Made by a program: the position numbers and the translations under genes. DNA of 64,000 nt, taken from positions 62,001-126,000 of the forward strand of contig NZ_QXPZ01000001.1 in assembly GCF_003664595.1 (NCBI RefSeq). The letters are read 5' to 3'. This stretch comes from Atopobacter sp. AH10 (lineage in GTDB: Bacteria; Bacillota; Bacilli; Lactobacillales; Aerococcaceae). Below, in pieces: positions 24 through 8,904 of the stretch (position 1 is its first letter; each line of letters starts with the position of its first letter). The notes under the pieces were generated by a model. That model was not told where the DNA came from. It did not search any database and was given only the letters and a program-made list of their open reading frames with translations.

Positions 24-722
24 ATGCGATTACCAAAATACCAAATTATCAGAAACAAGCTCAAAAGTGAGATTATATCGGGAAAATTTGAGAGTGGAGA
101 CCGGTTCTACACTGAGGCTGAGCTAGTTCACCTCTACCAAGTGAGCTCCATTACGGTCATTCGAGCTCTAAACGAATTGGTTCAAGAAGGTTATCTCGTC
201 CGCTATCAAGGGAAAGGTACTTTTATTTCTCGCTCAAGGAAAGGACGCCTTGTCGAGTTTTCGGATCTTGAAGTTTACCCCCTTGAAAAAGAAAAAGTAA
301 CCGTTCTGTCTATTGACAAGGGAGACGACCCAAAAATCCTCCAATTATTAGAATTAACAGCTAAAGATCACTACTACTGCATCCGTCGTATTCGGTCAGT
401 GAATGGCACTCCTTTCATTTACCACAAGACCTACCTCAACAGTCATTTGGTCAATACCAATCTTCCAAAAAATGCTTACTCATCTATTTACAATCGGATC
501 AAAGTTGACTTCGGCATCCATATGTCTGAAGAACCTTACGAGGAAACTAATGAAATTCTTTACCCTGCACCTAAAGAAGTCGCTACTCTTTTAGACCTCC
601 CCTCAAATGACCCTATTGTTAAACAAGTCAAACTCACCCGTTCATCCTTTAATGACAAACCCCTTGAATATATCATCACCCATAAACGTTGGGATTATTA
701 CAAATTCAAAGTAAAAGGCTAG
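24..722 (+). CDS. GntR-family transcriptional regulator with UTRA ligand domain
   Basis: A 232-residue one-domain-plus-sensor repressor. Residues 1-70 form the GntR winged helix (KYQIIRNKLKSEI at the start, YQVSSITVIRALNELVQEGY as the recognition helix region, then GKGTFIS wing). Residues about 80-230 match the UTRA sensor fold, which in this family binds sugar phosphates or similar small ligands. The length is normal for the family. The gene is cut off from anything upstream by the window edge, and a strong terminator overlaps its stop codon, so its target operon cannot be seen here; it may lie to the left. The subfamily (trehalose, beta-glucoside, amino sugar) cannot be decided from sequence alone. 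Confidence 0.9.
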   Translation: MRLPKYQIIRNKLKSEIISGKFESGDRFYTEAELVHLYQVSSITVIRALNELVQEGYLVRYQGKGTFISRSRKGRLVEFSDLEVYPLEKEKVTVLSIDKGDDPKILQLLELTAKDHYYCIRRIRSVNGTPFIYHKTYLNSHLVNTNLPKNAYSSIYNRIKVDFGIHMSEEPYEETNEILYPAPKEVATLLDLPSNDPIVKQVKLTRSSFNDKPLEYIITHKRWDYYKFKVKG

Positions 723-745
723 GTTCAGCTTGAACCTAGCCTTTT
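713..745 (+). terminator. Rho-independent terminator of the GntR gene
   Basis: Perfect 15-bp inverted repeat (arms 713-727 and 731-745, loop GCT) whose right arm ends in a T run. The stop codon TAG at 720-722 lies inside the left arm, so the hairpin overlaps the end of the gene. Confidence 0.9.
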
Positions 746-750
746 TTCGT

Positions 751-780
751 CTCTATACTTTTTGGGCTCTATACTTTTTG
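751..780. repeat. Short tandem duplication, 16-bp unit
   Basis: CTCTATACTTTTTGGG at 751-766 is followed directly by CTCTATACTTTTTG at 767-780. It lies between the regulator terminator and the convergent ABC exporter gene and is one of a dozen intergenic tandem duplications in the window. I see no gene in 746-973. Confidence 0.7.
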
Positions 781-973
781 TTGTTGGTGAATTTGACAAA
801 GTGCCAAAAAAGCCAAAGATTAGTGACTAAAGCTTTCCTAATCCCTGGCTTTCCCTATATAACTTATTTATCTCTAGCTTACACTTGCCGTTTAAGTATC
901 CAAGACACTTTAAACCACACAAGATATGTAGCCCAGATTTCCATTAACATCTTCTTAAATGCTTCTAACCATA

Positions 974-2683
974 CTACTTCGACACAGTATATAAGGAATA
1001 GAAGTAGCCTTTTTCTGCCATTAATTCTTCATAACTACCCACTTCAATCAAGCGCCCTTTTTTCATGACGAGAATTTGATCGTATTGCTTGAGACTTTGT
1101 TCGTCCAAACGGTGGGTAATCACCACACGTAACATATCCTTCAAATCCAAAATAGATTGATTAATAGTAGCAGCTGTCTCATTATCAAGAGCTGAGGTGG
1201 CTTCATCAACTAGCAAAACTTCAGCATGTTTGAGTAGACTTCTAGCAATCGCGATACGTTGCTTTTCACCACCAGATAGTCGGTTCCCATTTTCACCACA
1301 GCTATAAGCTAATCCTTTTTCTTCAACTAATGGGGATAGCCCAGCCAATTCAACGACACGATCGATCTCCGATGCCGGAAAATCTTTAAACAGAGTAATA
1401 TTGTCTTTTATACTAGAATCAAAAATAAAGACGGATTGTTGTATCAAGGTCAATTTATCATAAAGAGATTCTTTGCTCACTTGACGTAGTTCCTTACCAT
1501 TAACCAGAATTTGCCCTTGATAATCAGTATAATAACCCATTAGCAAATGAATCAAGCTACTCTTCCCTGAACCAGATCCCCCAACAATCGCGTAAGATTT
1601 CCCCGCCAGTAAATTTAAATTCAAACTATCTACAGCCAAATGCTCGTCTTTTGTATAAGCAAAAGACACATTCTCTAAACGTATTCCTTCTCCTAGTTCT
1701 AATAAATCTGTTTTATCCTCATCTCTTTTAGTAGAGCCAATTTGATCAGCCATTTTAACTATGAGCTTTTGAGCGCCCTTCATTTGTCCGATCAATTGTG
1801 GCAAGACAGAAATAGGTTGCAAAACAAAATTCATTAAATTCGTGAAAGCTAAGACCATACCTGCTGTTAAAGTAGAGGATTGCTGATGCACTAACCAAGC
1901 CCCAGCCAGCAAAACACCAAATTGGGCAATTAAACCTGCCCCTTCCCCTAAGCTATTGACAAGAATTCGACTTTGTTCTCGATTCTTTTTCACCTTTTCA
2001 AGTGTTTTGGACCGATCTTCATATAAGCCTGCTACTTCCTCTTCTGCTTTAAAGCTTTTCACCACTGACATCCCATTGAGAATATCTTTCGTAAGGGATA
2101 CATAATTTTCGTTATTTCTTGCAACCGTTTCTTCTCTTTCAGCTAACTGATTAGCCATGGAAACAGAAGCAAAGACTGGAACCATCGAAATCAGGATAGC
2201 TATTAAGGTTAATAAAGGACTGTAGTAAAGCATTAAAGATAAAGATCCCACTAACATCACAACTTGGAGGATCGCATCAAAAATTTTCTTGAGGTAATTC
2301 TCCTGAATTCTCTCACAATCGTTCGTAAAAATAGACAAATAGGTCGCAGAATTAGCAGCGTTATAGTCTGCTAAATTTTTCTCTAACAATTGTCGAATAA
2401 AGACTTCCTTGTACTGATTCATTGCTTTTTCCAAAAATCTAGGATAGAAGTGATATTCCCCTATAGCCTTCACTCCTGTCACAAAAAGCAAACCCACAAA
2501 AGCTAATAAAATCATTAAAAAACTATAGCTACTTTTCCCAGCCATATAATCAAAAACAAGTTGTAGCCCTACAGAAATCCCTAAATTAATAAGTGCGGTA
2601 AAAATATAGATCACAACTGTTAAAAAAACCACTAAACGATTATTTTTAAAAAATAACTTTCTATACTGACGGTACGAATTCAT
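974..2683 (-). CDS. ABC exporter, fused permease and ATPase
   Basis: A 569-residue half-transporter: about six membrane helices in residues 1-310 and one nucleotide-binding domain after that. Walker A GGSGSGKSS is near residue 364, the Q-loop LIQQSVFIFD follows, then signature RLSGGEKQRIAIARS near 466, Walker B LLVDEATSALD near 493 and H-loop VITHRL near 522. All catalytic residues are canonical, so a homodimer is expected. It has no N-terminal C39 peptidase domain. The start has an AAGGAGG site. It is the last gene of a four-gene minus-strand unit that opens with a 58-residue peptide, which makes peptide export or immunity an attractive job, but that is inference. It could equally export a lipid or drug. 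Confidence 0.85.
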   Translation of the reverse strand: MNSYRQYRKLFFKNNRLVVFLTVVIYIFTALINLGISVGLQLVFDYMAGKSSYSFLMILLAFVGLLFVTGVKAIGEYHFYPRFLEKAMNQYKEVFIRQLLEKNLADYNAANSATYLSIFTNDCERIQENYLKKIFDAILQVVMLVGSLSLMLYYSPLLTLIAILISMVPVFASVSMANQLAEREETVARNNENYVSLTKDILNGMSVVKSFKAEEEVAGLYEDRSKTLEKVKKNREQSRILVNSLGEGAGLIAQFGVLLAGAWLVHQQSSTLTAGMVLAFTNLMNFVLQPISVLPQLIGQMKGAQKLIVKMADQIGSTKRDEDKTDLLELGEGIRLENVSFAYTKDEHLAVDSLNLNLLAGKSYAIVGGSGSGKSSLIHLLMGYYTDYQGQILVNGKELRQVSKESLYDKLTLIQQSVFIFDSSIKDNITLFKDFPASEIDRVVELAGLSPLVEEKGLAYSCGENGNRLSGGEKQRIAIARSLLKHAEVLLVDEATSALDNETAATINQSILDLKDMLRVVITHRLDEQSLKQYDQILVMKKGRLIEVGSYEELMAEKGYFYSLYTVSK

Positions 2684-2707
2684 GAAACCCCTCCTTACAG
2701 CTTGGCC

Positions 2708-3175
2708 TTAGCCAATAATTTGCAGAATCCCTTGCGCAAGTGCCACAAGATCGTCTTCTTTCTTTCTATTCCTTACATATGACTTCCAGTTGATACTCGA
2801 ATTTTTTTCAAACAGTAAAAGCAAGGCAATATTAAAAAAGCATCTGTCATCCTCTTGACTCAAGAGGCTCAGCGCCATGCCCTCTAATAGCCGGCACTCT
2901 ATTTCACTTGGCCGATAGTCATAAACAATATAGTTTTTAAGGAGTTCCTCCACGATGCTTTGATATTCCAGTGGATCAATATCCACCACATTCACCGATA
3001 ACTTATTTATCTTGTAGGTGAGTGGCTCCCAATGTGCCTTCAATTGCTCCCTTTTCTCTTTTAAAGAGTAAAAAAAATACGCTAAGAGTAAACTTTCTAC
3101 TGTATGTTCCTTTAGCGCTCTCTTTAAAAGATGACAGCTATTTTCTCTTAAGTTTTTTCCCCAATAGTCGTTCAT
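2708..3175 (-). CDS. Unrecognised all-helical protein, 155 aa
   Basis: I do not recognise a family. The product is soluble, has no signal peptide and appears helical throughout, with charged segments such as LKRALKEHTVESLLLAYFFY alternating with leucine-rich ones. Its ATG overlaps the TGA of the 303-residue gene upstream (ATGA), so the two are probably translationally coupled, and the ABC exporter starts about 25 bp downstream. Conserved position between a small peptide gene and an exporter suggests an accessory role for that exporter or a maturation or immunity role, but the sequence itself gives no catalytic motif to support this. Confidence 0.6.
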   Translation of the reverse strand: MNDYWGKNLRENSCHLLKRALKEHTVESLLLAYFFYSLKEKREQLKAHWEPLTYKINKLSVNVVDIDPLEYQSIVEELLKNYIVYDYRPSEIECRLLEGMALSLLSQEDDRCFFNIALLLLFEKNSSINWKSYVRNRKKEDDLVALAQGILQIIG

Positions 3176-4083
3176 TCACTTACCTCTATTAAGTCCTTGA
3201 CCATTTTTAAGACGAGAACCGTATGGTAATAACCACTTATCTCACTCAACTCATGCGATTTGGTAGTTTCTTCCAACTTTTTCATGAAATGGTATAACTG
3301 ACGAAACGCTTTTTTAAAAATGGAATCATATGTCATTTTTACTGACTGTCCCATTAAAAGATAGCAGAGCAATAGTTCAGCCAATAAGTCATAATCTTCC
3401 TTAATTAAGCATGAGACAGTGTAGCTAGATAAACGTTGCTCCAGCAGTTTCTGCCCTTTTTCAGGGAAGTAAGAGAAAAATTCAGGAAACTCATTTAAAT
3501 AAGATAAATAAAAGACCCAATGCGTCAGGATATACATTTCTTCTCTATCTATAAGACCATCTTTCACTCGATCATAGATATCGGATCTTAAAAACTCTTC
3601 TACTCTAGACGCATATTTCTTCTCAAGCATAGACTGATAGGTCATTAATTCCACTTGATTGAAGGAGTTTTTTACAGAAATATCTAAACTATAACGCTCC
3701 TGTCCGTCTAGAGAGAATTTATCTTGAAAAGATCGCCCATCAGATGGAATAACTTGCTTATAAGTCTCTTGTCCGTTTGGGTTATCGGCTCCCTGGTCGA
3801 TTCCAGTTGACTTAAACCTTTGCCGATAAAGGCTGAGAAGCATAAGAATAGCTGGATCAAGTTCACTAATCGAACGACCATTTACTTCTTCAAAAAATTC
3901 TTCTATCGTCCCTTGCTCGTCTTCAGATGGCTTTTTCGAGAAAATACTAGCAAAAACTAATTCAGCATTCATTTTTTCATAGTCTTTGTCATCCATACGA
4001 GAAAATAGGGGTAAAAAAGTATCCAATAATTGTTCTAGCTCTTCCCCCCATTTCTTTTTTTCTTTTCTATTCGAAAGCCACAT
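3172..4083 (-). CDS. Unrecognised cytoplasmic helical protein, 303 aa
   Basis: No family recognised. It begins MWLSNRKEKKKWGEEL and has an acidic, low-complexity stretch around residues 100-125 between two helical halves; the C-terminal half is rich in Leu and Tyr (for example YDLLAELLLCYLLMGQ). There is no signal peptide, membrane segment or obvious metal or nucleotide site. Its ATG lies inside the end of the preceding 58-residue peptide gene (17-bp overlap), and its stop overlaps the next start, so all four genes look like one tightly coupled transcript. A scaffold, maturation or immunity protein for the peptide is possible but unproven. Confidence 0.6.
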   Translation of the reverse strand: MWLSNRKEKKKWGEELEQLLDTFLPLFSRMDDKDYEKMNAELVFASIFSKKPSEDEQGTIEEFFEEVNGRSISELDPAILMLLSLYRQRFKSTGIDQGADNPNGQETYKQVIPSDGRSFQDKFSLDGQERYSLDISVKNSFNQVELMTYQSMLEKKYASRVEEFLRSDIYDRVKDGLIDREEMYILTHWVFYLSYLNEFPEFFSYFPEKGQKLLEQRLSSYTVSCLIKEDYDLLAELLLCYLLMGQSVKMTYDSIFKKAFRQLYHFMKKLEETTKSHELSEISGYYHTVLVLKMVKDLIEVSE

Positions 4084-4243
4084 GCTGTATATTTTCTTTC
4101 TTTTTCCCTAGATTAACATCTATATATCTATTTGAAGAAGATTTGTATATTTGAATAAAGGTCCATTTTTCAAGGCTCTTTTCTTTTTCTTCATCTTCCA
4201 AGCCAATTGTTATCAATTTCTTTTCTTTATCAAATTTAATCAT
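4067..4243 (-). CDS. Small peptide, 58 aa, first gene of exporter operon
   Basis: A short frame that stands out because of its signals: a GGAGGAGG site seven bases before ATG at 4243 and a consensus promoter just upstream. The product begins MIKFDKEKKL, has a very charged middle (LEDEEKEKSLEKW), one Trp, and ends NIQHVAFE. It has no Cys and no hydrophobic signal sequence. Its 3' end overlaps the start of the 303-residue gene by 17 bp. It could be the precursor of an exported modified peptide, a small regulatory subunit, or simply a leader peptide that couples translation into the next gene. Coding is supported by signals and overlap, not by homology. Confidence 0.55.
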   Translation of the reverse strand: MIKFDKEKKLITIGLEDEEKEKSLEKWTFIQIYKSSSNRYIDVNLGKKKENIQHVAFE

Positions 4244-4276
4244 AAATATTCCTCCTCCATATTTGATTTCAATGAT

Positions 4277-4305
4277 ATGTTACTCTTCTTTTTTTATATT
4301 GTCAA
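4277..4305 (-). promoter_or_regulatory. Consensus promoter for the small-peptide/ABC exporter operon
   Basis: Minus-strand -35 TTGACA (4300-4305) and -10 TAACAT (4277-4282) separated by 17 bp. Expected start near 4270 gives a leader of about 27 nt before the 58-residue peptide gene. Confidence 0.7.
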
Positions 4306-4494
4306 TGGATTTATAAAAAATATCCATTCTATTTTTAACTAGATTATCATAAAATAAGTGTCACTATAACCATGTTTAATACGCCGATTCTCTATCCCGA
4401 TAAACCTTTTATATATCTGTAAAATATTCTTCTAGTTATCGTCGTAGAAAAAAGCAATTTAGTCCATAGCGTCCTTCTTTTTATTAGGTTTTTA

Positions 4495-4538
4495 TTAAAA
4501 AAAGAAAAGGCGATTAAGTTTCATCGCCCTTTCTTTTT
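4495..4538 (-). terminator. Terminator of nrdD-nrdG
   Basis: GGCGAT (4509-4514) pairs with ATCGCC (4523-4528), extended by AAAGAAA/TTTCTTT, with a T run on the minus strand. It sits just downstream of the nrdG stop. The rest of 4306-4576 shows no gene. Confidence 0.75.
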
Positions 4539-4576
4539 TCTGAAGAATTTACCAACAATAAAAGTTGATAAATTGC

Positions 4577-5161
4577 TTATAATTTAAAGTACCTCTGACT
4601 ATCGACACATTTGTCCCATATCACAACTTCACCTTTTTCAAGGGACTTTGGGACATCAATAATTCGTTGGTTGGCAGATCCTCTGAATTGAAGCGTTAAA
4701 TCCTTCAATTCCAAGGCGAATCGCCCATCCACAAGAATATCAATCAAGGATAAAAGTTGTAACTTATCCTCAGATTCTAACATCATTTCTTCCCAGGTAT
4801 AACCCGTCCATGACCAGATATCCTTGTCTCTCCCAAATTCTTTCCGAATCCTTTGACATAAGGAAATACAAACCTCTGTATTCATGAATGGCTCTCCACC
4901 TAAGAGGGTCAAACCTTGACAGTATGGGGCTTTCAAATCCTCAATAATTTGATCTTCTAATTCTTTTGTATAGAGATGACCGTAGTTAAAATTTTGCGCT
5001 ACCTTGTTGTAACAGCCAGGGCAGGCAAATAGGCAACCTGAAACATACAGGCTACAGCGGACACCCTCTCCATCAACAAAATTGTAAGGTTTGTAATCCG
5101 CTATTTTATGTTGAGAATAATCTTTACTAAGCCATTCCTGTGGCAAGGGATTGCGTATCAT
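4577..5161 (-). CDS. nrdG: Anaerobic ribonucleotide reductase activating protein (radical SAM)
   Basis: A 194-residue radical SAM enzyme that installs the glycyl radical on NrdD using S-adenosylmethionine and a 4Fe-4S cluster. The cluster motif is CLFACPGC near residues 43-50, in the CxxxCxxC form, followed by GGEPF-type binding segment LTLLGGEPFMN. The gene overlaps the 3' end of nrdD by about 35 bp, the usual arrangement, so the two are translated from one message. Length is slightly above the E. coli protein (about 154) but normal for Firmicutes. No separate promoter is seen; regulation should follow the NrdR sites upstream of nrdD. Confidence 0.96.
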   Translation of the reverse strand: MIRNPLPQEWLSKDYSQHKIADYKPYNFVDGEGVRCSLYVSGCLFACPGCYNKVAQNFNYGHLYTKELEDQIIEDLKAPYCQGLTLLGGEPFMNTEVCISLCQRIRKEFGRDKDIWSWTGYTWEEMMLESEDKLQLLSLIDILVDGRFALELKDLTLQFRGSANQRIIDVPKSLEKGEVVIWDKCVDSQRYFKL

Positions 5162-7349
5162 TATTTTCCAGGCCCTTCATATGTTTCTTCCGATGGCGAA
5201 TTTCTTCATGGCGACCGTGAACCATAGGACGAGCTTGAGGGTTACCTAAATAACCGCAAGTCCGTTTAACCACATCGCAAGTCTTTGGATCATTGTTACC
5301 ACACTTAGGGCATTCAAAGCCACGTTCAGTTGGATTGAACTCCCCTTGGAATCCACATTTGTAACATCTATCAATAGGCGTATTGGTTCCCAAATATCCC
5401 ACACGATCATAGGCATAATCCCAGACAGCTTCCAAAGCTTTTGGATTTGTCCTTAAAACCGGATATTCACAGTAATGAATGAAGCCACCACTGCAATATT
5501 TCGGATAATCTTTTTCAAAATCCAATTTTTCAAATGGAGTAGGTTGTTTCCGAACGTCATAGTGGAAGGAGTTCGTGTAATATTCTTTGTCAGTAATATC
5601 TGGAACCAATCCAAATTTCTTCGTGTCCAAACGGCAGAAACGATCGGTCAAACTTTCACTTGGTGTGGAATATATACTGAAATGGTAGCCATATTCTTCG
5701 CTCCATTCATCGCATTGTTCCTTCATAGACTTGACAATATCCAAAGTAAATTGTTTAGCTTCTGCATTATGCTCCCATTCCGGACCATAAAAAACTGTCG
5801 CTACTTCATAAAGACCAATATAGCCTAATGAAACTGTCGCCCGCCCATTCTTAAATAATTCATCCACATCGTCTGTTGGAGCAAGTCGTTTCCCAAAAGC
5901 TCCATATTGATAAAGAATCGGTGCGTTAGATGGTGTAGCTTCCTTGGTGCGATTCACCTTATAAACAAGGGCATCGTGGCATATTTTCATCTTGCTTTCA
6001 AAAATAGACCAGAATTTTTCTTTATCCCCCTTAGATTCTAAGGCAATCCGTGGCAAATTAAGGGTCACTACCCCTAAATTCATCCGACCAGAATTAACTT
6101 CCTTGCCATTTTCATCTTTCCAACCTTGCAAGAAAGAACGACAACCCATAGGCACTTTGAAACTTCCAGTCAATTCAACGATTTTATCATACGAAAGCAC
6201 ATCTGGATACATGCGTTTGGTTGCACATTCTAAGGCTAATTCTTTGACATCATAGTTAGGATCACCTGGCTCTAAGTTCAATCCTCTCTTTAAAGTAAAG
6301 ATCAATTTAGGGAAGATGGCTGTACGCTCTTCTTTACCAATCCCTTTAATCCGAACCTTTAAGATAGATTTTTGAATCTCACGTTCGATTTCAGATGTAC
6401 CTAAGCCAAAACCCAATGTTGTGAATGGTGTTTGCCCCTGACTCGAATACAAGGTGTTAATTTCATATTCTAAGGATTGCATCGCATCATAAATATCTTT
6501 TTGTGTTTTCTTCTTAGCGTAGGCTTTTTGCTTTTCTTCGCCATCAACCCATTCTTTAGCGTCTTTTAAATGTTTTTCGTAGTTAATTTGTGCATAAGGA
6601 GCTAGAACTTCATCAATACGGTTAGCAGAACAGCCTCCATATTGACTAGAAGCCACGTTGGCAATAATTTGCGCCATTTGAGCCGTTGCAGTTTGAATAG
6701 AACGTGGAGATTCAACTTCAGCATTCCCAATCTTAAAGCCCTTCTCAAACATCCCCTTAAAGTCAATCAAGCAACAATTGGTTAAAGGCATATAAGGTTG
6801 ATAGTCTAAATCGTGGTAGTGAATATCCCCTTTTAAGTGAGCATTGGCCACATGCTTAGGCATCATCTTCAAGCCCATAGCCTTAGCTACTGTCCCTGCT
6901 GTAAGGTCTCGTTGGGTATTGAAGACCTTGGAGTCCTTATTAGCATTTTCATTCACAACAGTAGCGTCCTTCTTTAAGAGCTTTTGAATAGTGTAACGGA
7001 CATCCGTAGCCTTGGCTCGTTCAACATCACGTTTCAAGCGATAACCCACATAACTTTCTGCTAAAGTGGTCTTGCCATGCTCCAAAAGGGTGTGTTCAAC
7101 AATATTTTGAATTTCGTAAATTTTAATATCTTCGTGGAATCTTGAGGCAATTTCTTCATTAACATCATCCATCACGTCGTTAATTTCATTCATCAAAATA
7201 GCATCGATTCGTGGATAAAGCTGTTGAGCTGCCTTTATAATTGCGTTATAAATTTTTTCATCATTAAAAGGAACCATCCGACCATCTCTTTTGATGACCG
7301 CCAGATGAGAATTCGTTTCACGTGTATAATTGCTTAAGGTTTGTTCCAT
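5127..7349 (-). CDS. nrdD: Anaerobic ribonucleoside-triphosphate reductase
   Basis: A 740-residue class III reductase making deoxynucleotides without oxygen. An N-terminal ATP-cone (about residues 15-110, beginning VIKRDGRMVPFNDEKI) senses dATP/ATP. The C-terminus has the zinc site CYKCGFQGEF...CPKC and then the glycyl radical motif RTCGYLGNP. Catalytic Cys residues are expected in the barrel, for example LTNCCLIDFKG and YGGCSANR. Start is at 7349 behind an upstream AGGAGGC-like site. It is first in an operon with nrdG, and a pair of NrdR boxes lies about 45-95 bp upstream. This indicates a facultative anaerobic host. Confidence 0.97.
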   Translation of the reverse strand: MEQTLSNYTRETNSHLAVIKRDGRMVPFNDEKIYNAIIKAAQQLYPRIDAILMNEINDVMDDVNEEIASRFHEDIKIYEIQNIVEHTLLEHGKTTLAESYVGYRLKRDVERAKATDVRYTIQKLLKKDATVVNENANKDSKVFNTQRDLTAGTVAKAMGLKMMPKHVANAHLKGDIHYHDLDYQPYMPLTNCCLIDFKGMFEKGFKIGNAEVESPRSIQTATAQMAQIIANVASSQYGGCSANRIDEVLAPYAQINYEKHLKDAKEWVDGEEKQKAYAKKKTQKDIYDAMQSLEYEINTLYSSQGQTPFTTLGFGLGTSEIEREIQKSILKVRIKGIGKEERTAIFPKLIFTLKRGLNLEPGDPNYDVKELALECATKRMYPDVLSYDKIVELTGSFKVPMGCRSFLQGWKDENGKEVNSGRMNLGVVTLNLPRIALESKGDKEKFWSIFESKMKICHDALVYKVNRTKEATPSNAPILYQYGAFGKRLAPTDDVDELFKNGRATVSLGYIGLYEVATVFYGPEWEHNAEAKQFTLDIVKSMKEQCDEWSEEYGYHFSIYSTPSESLTDRFCRLDTKKFGLVPDITDKEYYTNSFHYDVRKQPTPFEKLDFEKDYPKYCSGGFIHYCEYPVLRTNPKALEAVWDYAYDRVGYLGTNTPIDRCYKCGFQGEFNPTERGFECPKCGNNDPKTCDVVKRTCGYLGNPQARPMVHGRHEEIRHRKKHMKGLENNDTQSLATGMA

Positions 7350-7394
7350 AAACTCAGCCTCCTATAGTGCCATTGTAGCAAGTTTATAGGTGTA

Positions 7395-7442
7395 ACACAA
7401 TATCTAGGGCTATAATTATTTTAAAACCACTAGATATTGTGA
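7395..7442 (-). promoter_or_regulatory. Paired NrdR boxes upstream of nrdDG
   Basis: Box 1 ACACAATATCTAGGGC (7395-7410) and box 2, which reads TCACAATATCTAGTGG on the minus strand (7427-7442), both match the NrdR consensus acaCwAtATaTwGtgt. Start-to-start distance is 32 bp, about three helical turns, as known for NrdR. The TATAAT-like TATAATTATT between them may be the -10. Confidence 0.8.
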
Positions 7443-7924
7443 AAACCCTTTAGGCATGGGCTTTTAATCGCTATCTTTATTTTCGAGCTGTTTAAAACCT
7501 TCAAATCAAATCTTTCATTTTTAGCGTCCCAATAGCTTTTACAAGAGCTAAGCACATTTTAGATTTTTTTTACCGAACACAAAGAATTTCTTTATTCTCA
7601 CAAAGTCCTCCCCCACATTTGCCCCTAGATAGAGTAGAAAGACGACAGGACCATATCAATTGATCCATGTCATGCAACGAATTCTGCTGGCAACTAGCTC
7701 CCTTTCTTCAACTAAGTCTTATTTATCTATCAAAAGTCCTTTCATCCAGCAGGTGATAAAAGTAATCCGCTCAATTCATCATTTAACTTGCATTAGTAGT
7801 AATCAGACTGTTAGAATACATAAGTCCGCTTGATGGAAGAATGCGCTTTTATAGAAACAAAACGGCATGCTTACCAGTTTCAACTAGACCAATTAGAGCT
7901 GGTCGAGTTAGATAAAACTTGTGC
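7443..7924. other. Gene-poor stretch
   Basis: I see no credible gene, RNA or terminator here. Short open frames exist but lack ribosome binding sites and family resemblance. The stretch precedes the dispersed repeat copy at 7925. Confidence 0.5.
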
Positions 7925-8607: not shown

Positions 8608-8904
8608 ATGACAACAGTTGATCCAAACAACATCACTAACACAGCTATGGATGACGAAGCTTATGCTAATCAACTAGCTGCCAATGTTTTATTAGAACTT
8701 CGCAGTAAAAAACGTCTTACTCAACAAGAACTAGCGAAAGCCTGCAACAAAAACCAATCTTACATTGCTAAGATCGAAACAGGTAAGCAAAATATCAGCT
8801 TGAAAACTTTACATCAAATTGTAACAGCTGCTGGTGGCACTATTGACATTCGTGTGAAAGTACGCAAACGTCACAGTCGCAGAACGGAATTGTTTCCATC
8901 TTAA
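8608..8904 (+). CDS. XRE-family helix-turn-helix regulator, 98 aa
   Basis: A small DNA-binding protein. The HTH spans residues about 29-83: LTQQELAKACNKNQSYIAKI is the canonical pair of helices, followed by ISLKTLHQIVTAAGG. The N-terminal 28 residues are acidic and unlike the family core, and the C-terminus is basic (VRKRHSRRTE). Ribosome binding site AAAGGACG precedes the ATG. It is a single-gene unit bounded by its own promoter and a terminator pair. The fold resembles HigA-type antitoxins, but no toxin gene is adjacent, so an orphan regulator is more likely. Confidence 0.85.
   Translation: MTTVDPNNITNTAMDDEAYANQLAANVLLELRSKKRLTQQELAKACNKNQSYIAKIETGKQNISLKTLHQIVTAAGGTIDIRVKVRKRHSRRTELFPS

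Follow-up and report, generated by a model that had tools for sequence, protein, structure and literature searches.

The DNA analysed here is a stretch of 64,000 nucleotides from Atopobacter sp. AH10 (Aerococcaceae, Lactobacillales; contig NZ_QXPZ01000001.1, positions 62,001 to 126,000), referred to below as the window, and its source genome is an assembly of 2.2 Mb in 77 contigs. Four open reading frames (ORFs) lie there in series, all on the minus strand, with products of 58, 303, 155 and 569 amino acids (Table 1). The gene for the 58-aa peptide overlaps that of the 303-aa protein by 17 bp, and the latter overlaps the gene of the 155-aa protein by 4 bp. A preliminary description, made from the sequence alone, had already recognised a four-gene operon ending in an ATP-binding cassette (ABC) exporter, and the ORFs, their overlaps and the PF00664 and PF00005 domains of the exporter bear this out, on a strand that had been left unstated.

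Table 1. Features of the operon and of the related locus L027 (pN and pS, amino-acid and silent changes per site; coordinates of L027 are those of its own sequence).
Feature	Position	Strand	Evidence or remark
58-aa putative precursor peptide	4067..4243	minus	ORF, ribosome-binding site, L027 ortholog, pN < pS
303-aa DUF6895 protein, putative peptide epimerase	3172..4083	minus	PF21836 match, eight invariant residues
155-aa protein, putative partner of the DUF6895 protein	2708..3175	minus	position; L027 homolog
569-aa ABC exporter	974..2683	minus	fused membrane and ATPase domains (PF00664, PF00005, both over cut-off)
Promoter-like site TTGACA-17-TAACAT	4277..4305	minus	begins at 4305, upstream of the 58-aa peptide gene
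Terminator-like stem-loop	4509..4528	listed on + strand only	between nrdG and the operon
L027 peptide	7095-7277		
L027 DUF6895 protein	6305-7105		33.2 bits to PF21836
L027 232-aa protein	5595-6293		
L027 exporter	3828-5531		start by our own reading

The 303-aa protein matches the family PF21836 (DUF6895) with 31.9 bits, over the curated Pfam cut-off of 23.8, along profile positions 163-235 of 289. The operon had been described as holding two proteins of unknown family and no recognisable modification enzyme. The first statement persists for the 155-aa protein and falls for the 303-aa one, and the second has to be withdrawn, since for DUF6895 a peptide epimerase has been reported: the review PMC13352647, the one paper in the searched open-access literature to name DUF6895, cites a title (ACS Catal. 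2026, 16:1757, doi 10.1021/acscatal.5c08590) that names a DUF6895 lasso-peptide epimerase. A match of either protein to a known unrelated family had been foreseen as an argument against the proposed system; judging by that title, the family found is one tied to peptide modification, and the match does not refute the proposal.

For comparison, we used the 16 loci carrying an intact DUF6895 gene, leaving out L017 (genome G262) and L029 (genome G856), where the gene is broken or partial. These loci provide 17 proteins (two from L039), which come from Bacilli, Streptomycetaceae and one Cupriavidus. In their alignment, residues E41, Y184, T187, H188, D232, E236, Y286 and H287 of the window protein are invariant in 17/17 sequences, the window included, and a 14-row alignment (A7) returns the same eight residues plus V291 and the start methionine. 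The invariant residues could act as acid/base or metal-binding groups. No PDB entry matched the A7 profile at E<=10, and the window protein has no match in PADLOC or PHROGs.

The first gene of the operon encodes the 58-aa peptide, whose ATG is directly preceded by GGAGGAGG, a strong ribosome-binding site; the earlier wording could be read as placing this string within the peptide, and it is indeed present, located before the start codon. The peptide is charged, devoid of Cys and of any GG pair, and presents a leader-like N-terminus followed by a putative core with KWTFIQIYK, in which the WTFIQIYK stretch starts at Trp27. It has no match in Pfam or NCBIfam at E<=10, nor in PADLOC or PHROGs at E<=0.01. 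Against the peptide of locus L027 (genome G570, which belongs to a different family of the same order), it reaches a Smith-Waterman score of 140, where the best of 300 shuffles gives 55 (z = 21). The alignment runs nearly end to end, WTFIQIYK is common to both peptides, and the pair shows fewer amino-acid changes per site than silent ones (pN 0.28, pS 0.51). The conservation of the 58-aa peptide exceeds chance: a genome from a different family of the order has its ortholog, encoded at the equivalent position.

L027 carries the same four genes as the window operon in the same order. The idea of a peptide secretion cassette, put forward in the preliminary description together with the question of whether the gene order is conserved in relatives, is strengthened by this locus, where order, orthologous peptide and exporter are all kept, and by the small peptides of the wider family discussed below. 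Ruoffia tabacinasalis, a relative in the same family as the window genome, has a DUF6895 gene, a gene for a 141-aa protein and an exporter gene in the window order (L012/L020), and a 57-aa ORF in the peptide position overlaps the DUF6895 gene by 16 bp. Its exporter is 33-44% identical to those of L029, L015, L016 and L028, versus 28% to that of the window. Divergent from this cluster and adjoining it lies the gene of an Rgg/GadR/MutR-family regulator (TIGR01716; L012:6177-7079). Regulators of this type are often tied to peptide signalling.

The third gene is more difficult to place. The 155-aa protein has no Pfam or NCBIfam family at E<=10 and no match in PADLOC or PHROGs at E<=0.01. A phmmer search of a small set revealed a homolog in L027 (3.5e-9); homology to the partner proteins of other DUF6895 clusters was not detected, and an hhalign comparison of two pairs gave no confident homology to the 141-aa Ruoffia protein. 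The helical nature attributed to the partner proteins is an impression from the sequence, the structure models being too poor to show it. In L035 and L036, DUF6895 is fused to a second domain, which suggests that DUF6895 proteins work with a partner. The 155-aa protein has no detectable homology to that domain, which in L035 bears a weak resemblance to the third protein of both L013 and L014 (phmmer in a small set, E about 1e-5). By its position and by analogy with these fusions, the 155-aa protein could be the partner of the DUF6895 protein.

Regarding the exporter, only PF00664 and PF00005 exceed their Pfam cut-offs, and the absence of a C39 peptidase domain noted previously is confirmed. 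Its PADLOC matches (mad3, mad8 and AbiLi) all fall in the ATPase part. In a comparison of seven loci of the order (the window, L027, L012, L015, L016, L028 and the decayed L029), a fused-type exporter gene belongs to the cluster in 7/7, and the window exporter is 49.7% identical to that of L027 and 25-28% to those of the other five.

Beyond the closest loci, a statistically supported small peptide, meaning one that matches the peptide of at least one other locus, is encoded beside DUF6895 or two genes from it in 13/16 intact loci. These loci are not all independent, as L014, L032 and L033 are near-duplicates, as are L015 and L016, and L035 and L036 are close relatives. The small ORF stands directly before DUF6895 in ten of the 13; in L015, L016 and L028, two genes intervene, one for an ABC ATPase and one probably for a membrane protein, which in L015 exceeds no Pfam cut-off. 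Peptide cores of the kind AWSGWVLVVPS, VWSGWLLVYPS and AWSFWAVV (hereafter WSGW-type) occur in L013, L014, L015, L016, L028, L032 and L033, and the actinomycete plasmid loci L035 and L036 have AWDKYVLVVPS and AWERYVLVVAN. The peptide of L014 (AWSGWVLVVPS) matches that of L035 from Kitasatospora (AWDKYVLVVPS) with z = 8.5, and L034 and L037 are linked to L035 through the leader-like part. Support for L034 comes from its match to L035 (score 49, highest shuffle 36), because one shuffle, at 59, beat the score of 53 observed between L034 and L037. In the peptides of L014, L032 and L033, pN is 0.01-0.04 versus a pS of 0.14-0.27. Seven small ORFs from these other loci gave 0/7 matches in NCBIfam, and five gave 0/5 in Pfam (both at E<=1). 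The three intact loci outside the 13 are L012, whose ORF showed no similarity when tested, and L038 and L039, for which small ORFs were listed only.

ABC genes are present in L013-L016, L028 and L032-L034, and one or two further proteins are encoded near DUF6895 in L013-L016, L028 and L032-L037. L028 may hold a partly disrupted cluster: the membrane partner of its ABC ATPase and its third protein each appear as two ORFs. The fusions of L035 (6986-8740) and L036 (6962-8695) are each preceded by a small peptide whose core reads AW[DE][KR]YVLVV, and a type I polyketide synthase gene is found in the same stretch. L039 (5274-7516, on a Streptomyces chartreusis plasmid) has two tandem DUF6895 genes, with no small peptide recognised beside them, and in L038 (6069-7867, on a Cupriavidus plasmid) the DUF6895 gene (6944-7867) follows ORFs of 125 and 164 aa. 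In L029 (215-3239, from the G070 genus), the DUF6895 gene is broken, the second gene encodes 123 aa and the exporter gene has its normal length, which looks like a cassette in decay.

DUF6895 is rare, being found in 2/100 near relatives of the window genome, 2/76 genomes of its family and 5/395 of its order. PF21836 occurs in 6/398 genomes of the class (one a fragment with a stop), and in a draw of 398 genomes from the phylum the single case is the window itself. Elsewhere, it was found in 3/147 genomes of the G070 genus (one with a stop), 1/3 of the G180 family, 3/80 of the G250 family and 1/27 of the G570 family. These tallies overlap, as each includes its centre genome, and G000 is counted in the near-relative, class, family, order and phylum tallies. 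From their gene content, we guess that G070, G450, G850 and G856 are streptococci and that G250, G888 and G902 belong to Bacillaceae; what is established is that the former share the order of the window genome and the latter its class. A scan of the genomes of 84,980 species with a single short pattern retrieved Ruoffia only, a result of little weight given how narrow the pattern is. Among plasmids, the L015 protein matched three records and the L007 protein five (six different in all), and the L035 DUF6895 protein matched itself and two records already known. No plasmid match was obtained for the DUF6895 protein and the 58-aa peptide of the window, nor for the L014 peptide, and no phage match for the L015 DUF6895 protein. 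Searches of viral contigs gave 58, 88 and 88 pattern matches, of which zero were confirmed as relatives.

Taken together, we consider it somewhat probable that the operon is a cassette for a ribosomally synthesized and post-translationally modified peptide (RiPP), in which the 58-aa precursor is changed, probably epimerised, by the DUF6895 protein and its partner, and then exported. We infer that the 58-aa peptide is the substrate and the DUF6895 protein its enzyme. What the sequences establish is the gene order, the assignment to DUF6895, the eight invariant residues and the conservation of the precursor in a second genome, whereas epimerisation, the roles of those residues and of the partner, cleavage and activity are proposed. 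The peptide would be made as an N-terminal leader plus a core including WTFIQIYK, in which the DUF6895 protein and the 155-aa partner would turn one or more L-residues into D-residues, presumably by acid/base or metal-assisted chemistry via His188/His287, Tyr184/Tyr286, Asp232 and Glu41/Glu236. Secretion would then take place through the ABC exporter, and the leader would be removed by a protease whose gene lies outside the operon, at a putative cleavage site. Once mature, the product would target other bacteria or serve in signalling, an antimicrobial or signalling role being the most likely, and the Rgg-type regulator beside the Ruoffia cluster fits either. Its mode of action would resemble that of the epipeptide of Bacillus subtilis, with the DUF6895 enzyme replacing the radical S-adenosylmethionine (SAM) epimerase.

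Several observations weigh against this proposal. It is weakest at two points, the function of DUF6895, which is taken from the title cited in PMC13352647, and the dissimilarity between the window-type and the WSGW-type peptides. When the 58-aa peptide was compared with the WSGW-type profile, 84 of 977 scored shuffles equalled or exceeded the observed score, and five of the 187 small ORFs in the window outscored it; for the L027 peptide, 34 of 965 scored shuffles reached the observed value. An hhalign comparison of both types gave a probability of 0.6%, and pairwise comparisons gave z from -1.1 to 2.1, and about 0 against the actinomycete peptides. Homology between both types was tested and found no support. 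The Ruoffia ORF has no sequence similarity to any other peptide compared, so the expectation that the 58-aa frame would be conserved wherever the other genes are kept holds for L027 and fails in Ruoffia. The pattern W[ST][FG][IWY]x[ILV][YV] has ten six-frame matches in 16 sequences, nine of them inside the peptides; it is a description rather than an independent test, because it was drawn from the same peptides. The enzyme side adds to these difficulties. The window DUF6895 protein is 15-28% identical to the others aligned, and the PFRxxDxKYS stretch typical of the WSGW-type subfamily is absent in the window, L027 and Ruoffia (it is altered too in L034-L039). In the DUF6895 tree, these three make up a clade of their own on a long branch (support 98/96). 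All three features speak against a simple transfer of function. Structure models of the DUF6895 protein (two sequences as input) and of the 155-aa protein (single sequence) reached mean predicted local distance difference test (pLDDT) values of 40.5 and 40.3, respectively, and are unusable. Furthermore, no protease gene is found among the four operon genes.

Some of these points are shared by rival explanations. The operon could be a RiPP cassette in which DUF6895 catalyses another reaction, such as a cyclisation or a different isomerisation, as the family is tied to epimerisation by a cited title only and the window protein belongs to the divergent clade just mentioned. All eight family-invariant residues are nevertheless kept in the window protein, which makes a shared chemistry the simplest reading, and we regard a different reaction as rather unlikely. 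We judge it unlikely that the 58-aa product is instead a small folded cytosolic protein (a chaperone, an immunity protein or a regulatory subunit) and that the exporter carries some other substrate. The charged, Cys-free sequence, with hydrophobic stretches that by eye might form a beta hairpin, would suit such a protein, as would its lack of resemblance to the WSGW-type peptides and the dissimilarity of the Ruoffia ORF to either; yet the peptide gene comes first in the operon in both the window and L027, and the supported small peptides of the wider family, even if not all independent, speak for a precursor. Finally, the exporter might be a multidrug or lipid ABC transporter with incidental small neighbours, its best NCBIfam score being that of MsbA (283 bits, far under the cut-off of 602). 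Such a coincidence appears very improbable to us, given the tight overlaps of 17 and 4 bp and the recurrence of the four-gene order, made up of related genes, in a different family of the order.

If the RiPP reading with epimerisation is followed further, the DUF6895 loci might constitute a RiPP class that has no description beyond lasso peptides, defined by a two-part, radical-SAM-free epimerase (DUF6895 and a partner, fused in two actinomycete loci) that places D-residues in a short, Trp-led hydrophobic core and extending from Aerococcaceae to Streptomycetaceae, of which the window operon would be a compact four-gene form with its own core; we put this forward tentatively, as a possibility that we do not yet hold to be probable. 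To our knowledge, few enzyme types introduce D-residues into ribosomal peptides, radical SAM enzymes being foremost among them. A DUF6895 cluster with no radical SAM partner would, if real, yield D-amino-acid peptides by simple means and point to unread precursor peptides across Gram-positive bacteria, and it raises the testable question of which role DUF6895 proteins play outside lasso clusters.

Concerning the setting of the operon, the promoter-like site TTGACA-17-TAACAT, taken in the preliminary description as a consensus promoter, exists and is the top promoter-like match in 600-4600, in a region where such sites are not in excess (11 versus 13.0, standard deviation 3.2, in shuffles). On the other side of it, the stem-loop between nrdG and the operon, with a T-rich tail on the minus strand as read by eye from the sequence, would split both into separate transcription units. 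The G+C content of the operon is 0.364, versus 0.389 for the window, and seven of 122 equal tiles are lower. Neither the operon nor a GntR gene follows nrdG in the nrdG surroundings of six relatives (0/6; 7.5-8.5 kb each), and the site after nrdG is variable, as the operon is missing there in all six. NrdG itself was considered as a modifying radical SAM enzyme and rejected, since it scores over the cut-off of TIGR02491 and its gene adjoins nrdD; a strong NrdG (65-78% identical) occurs in 12/13 genomes, with nrdD adjoining in 6/6 of those whose surroundings were fetched. Two further genes were recorded in the window: that of a GntR/UTRA regulator, convergent with the operon (24-722), and that of a short helix-turn-helix protein (8608-8904), whose top NCBIfam match is the antitoxin family TIGR03070, under its cut-off.

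Among known systems, several were compared with the window operon. A C39 bacteriocin was rejected, as the exporter has no C39 domain and the peptide no double glycine. The searched open-access literature contained no description of such a cluster, none of six core strings and no accession PF21836; the earlier view of an undescribed system stands within that scope. The DUF6895 lasso-peptide epimerase named in the title cited by PMC13352647 belongs to the same family, PF21836, and has, according to that title, a ribosomal peptide as substrate. The window precursor is different, and a lasso peptide cluster was rejected, since neither an Asn-synthetase-like cyclase nor a leader protease domain is present among the four operon proteins. 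Uncharacterised loci were compared as well: L013-L016, L028 and L032-L037 share with the window a small peptide near DUF6895 plus further proteins, and differ in having WSGW, AWxxYVLVV or other peptides and partner proteins that show no detectable homology to the 155-aa one. Another lasso peptide epimerase, MslH from the MS-271 pathway, reportedly uses a metal-dependent acid/base mechanism, according to a cited paper's title, and we take it to be of a different protein family than DUF6895.

The epipeptide YydF of B. subtilis is a short precursor in which two D-residues are the sole change; it is accompanied by the radical SAM epimerase YydG, the protease YydH and an ABC transporter taken as immunity (PMC7026026, PMC5682303). 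Membership of the window operon in this group was rejected, because the four operon proteins include neither a YydF-family precursor nor a radical SAM enzyme: the 58-aa peptide has no NCBIfam match to the YydF family (TIGR04077) at E<=10, and no YydF-family match was found in its own genome, with a positive B. subtilis control. As far as the EpeX/YydF cluster (yydFGHIJ) is presented in the parts of PMC7026026, PMC5682303 and PMC8326336 consulted, it resembles the window operon in having a short precursor, an ABC transporter and no cyclisation enzyme. The window operon differs from it in having neither a YydG-type radical SAM epimerase nor YydH. Epimerisation is the sole change in the known system and is only supposed for the window, and the ABC transporter described as an immunity function in the former has an exporter-type protein as its counterpart in the latter.

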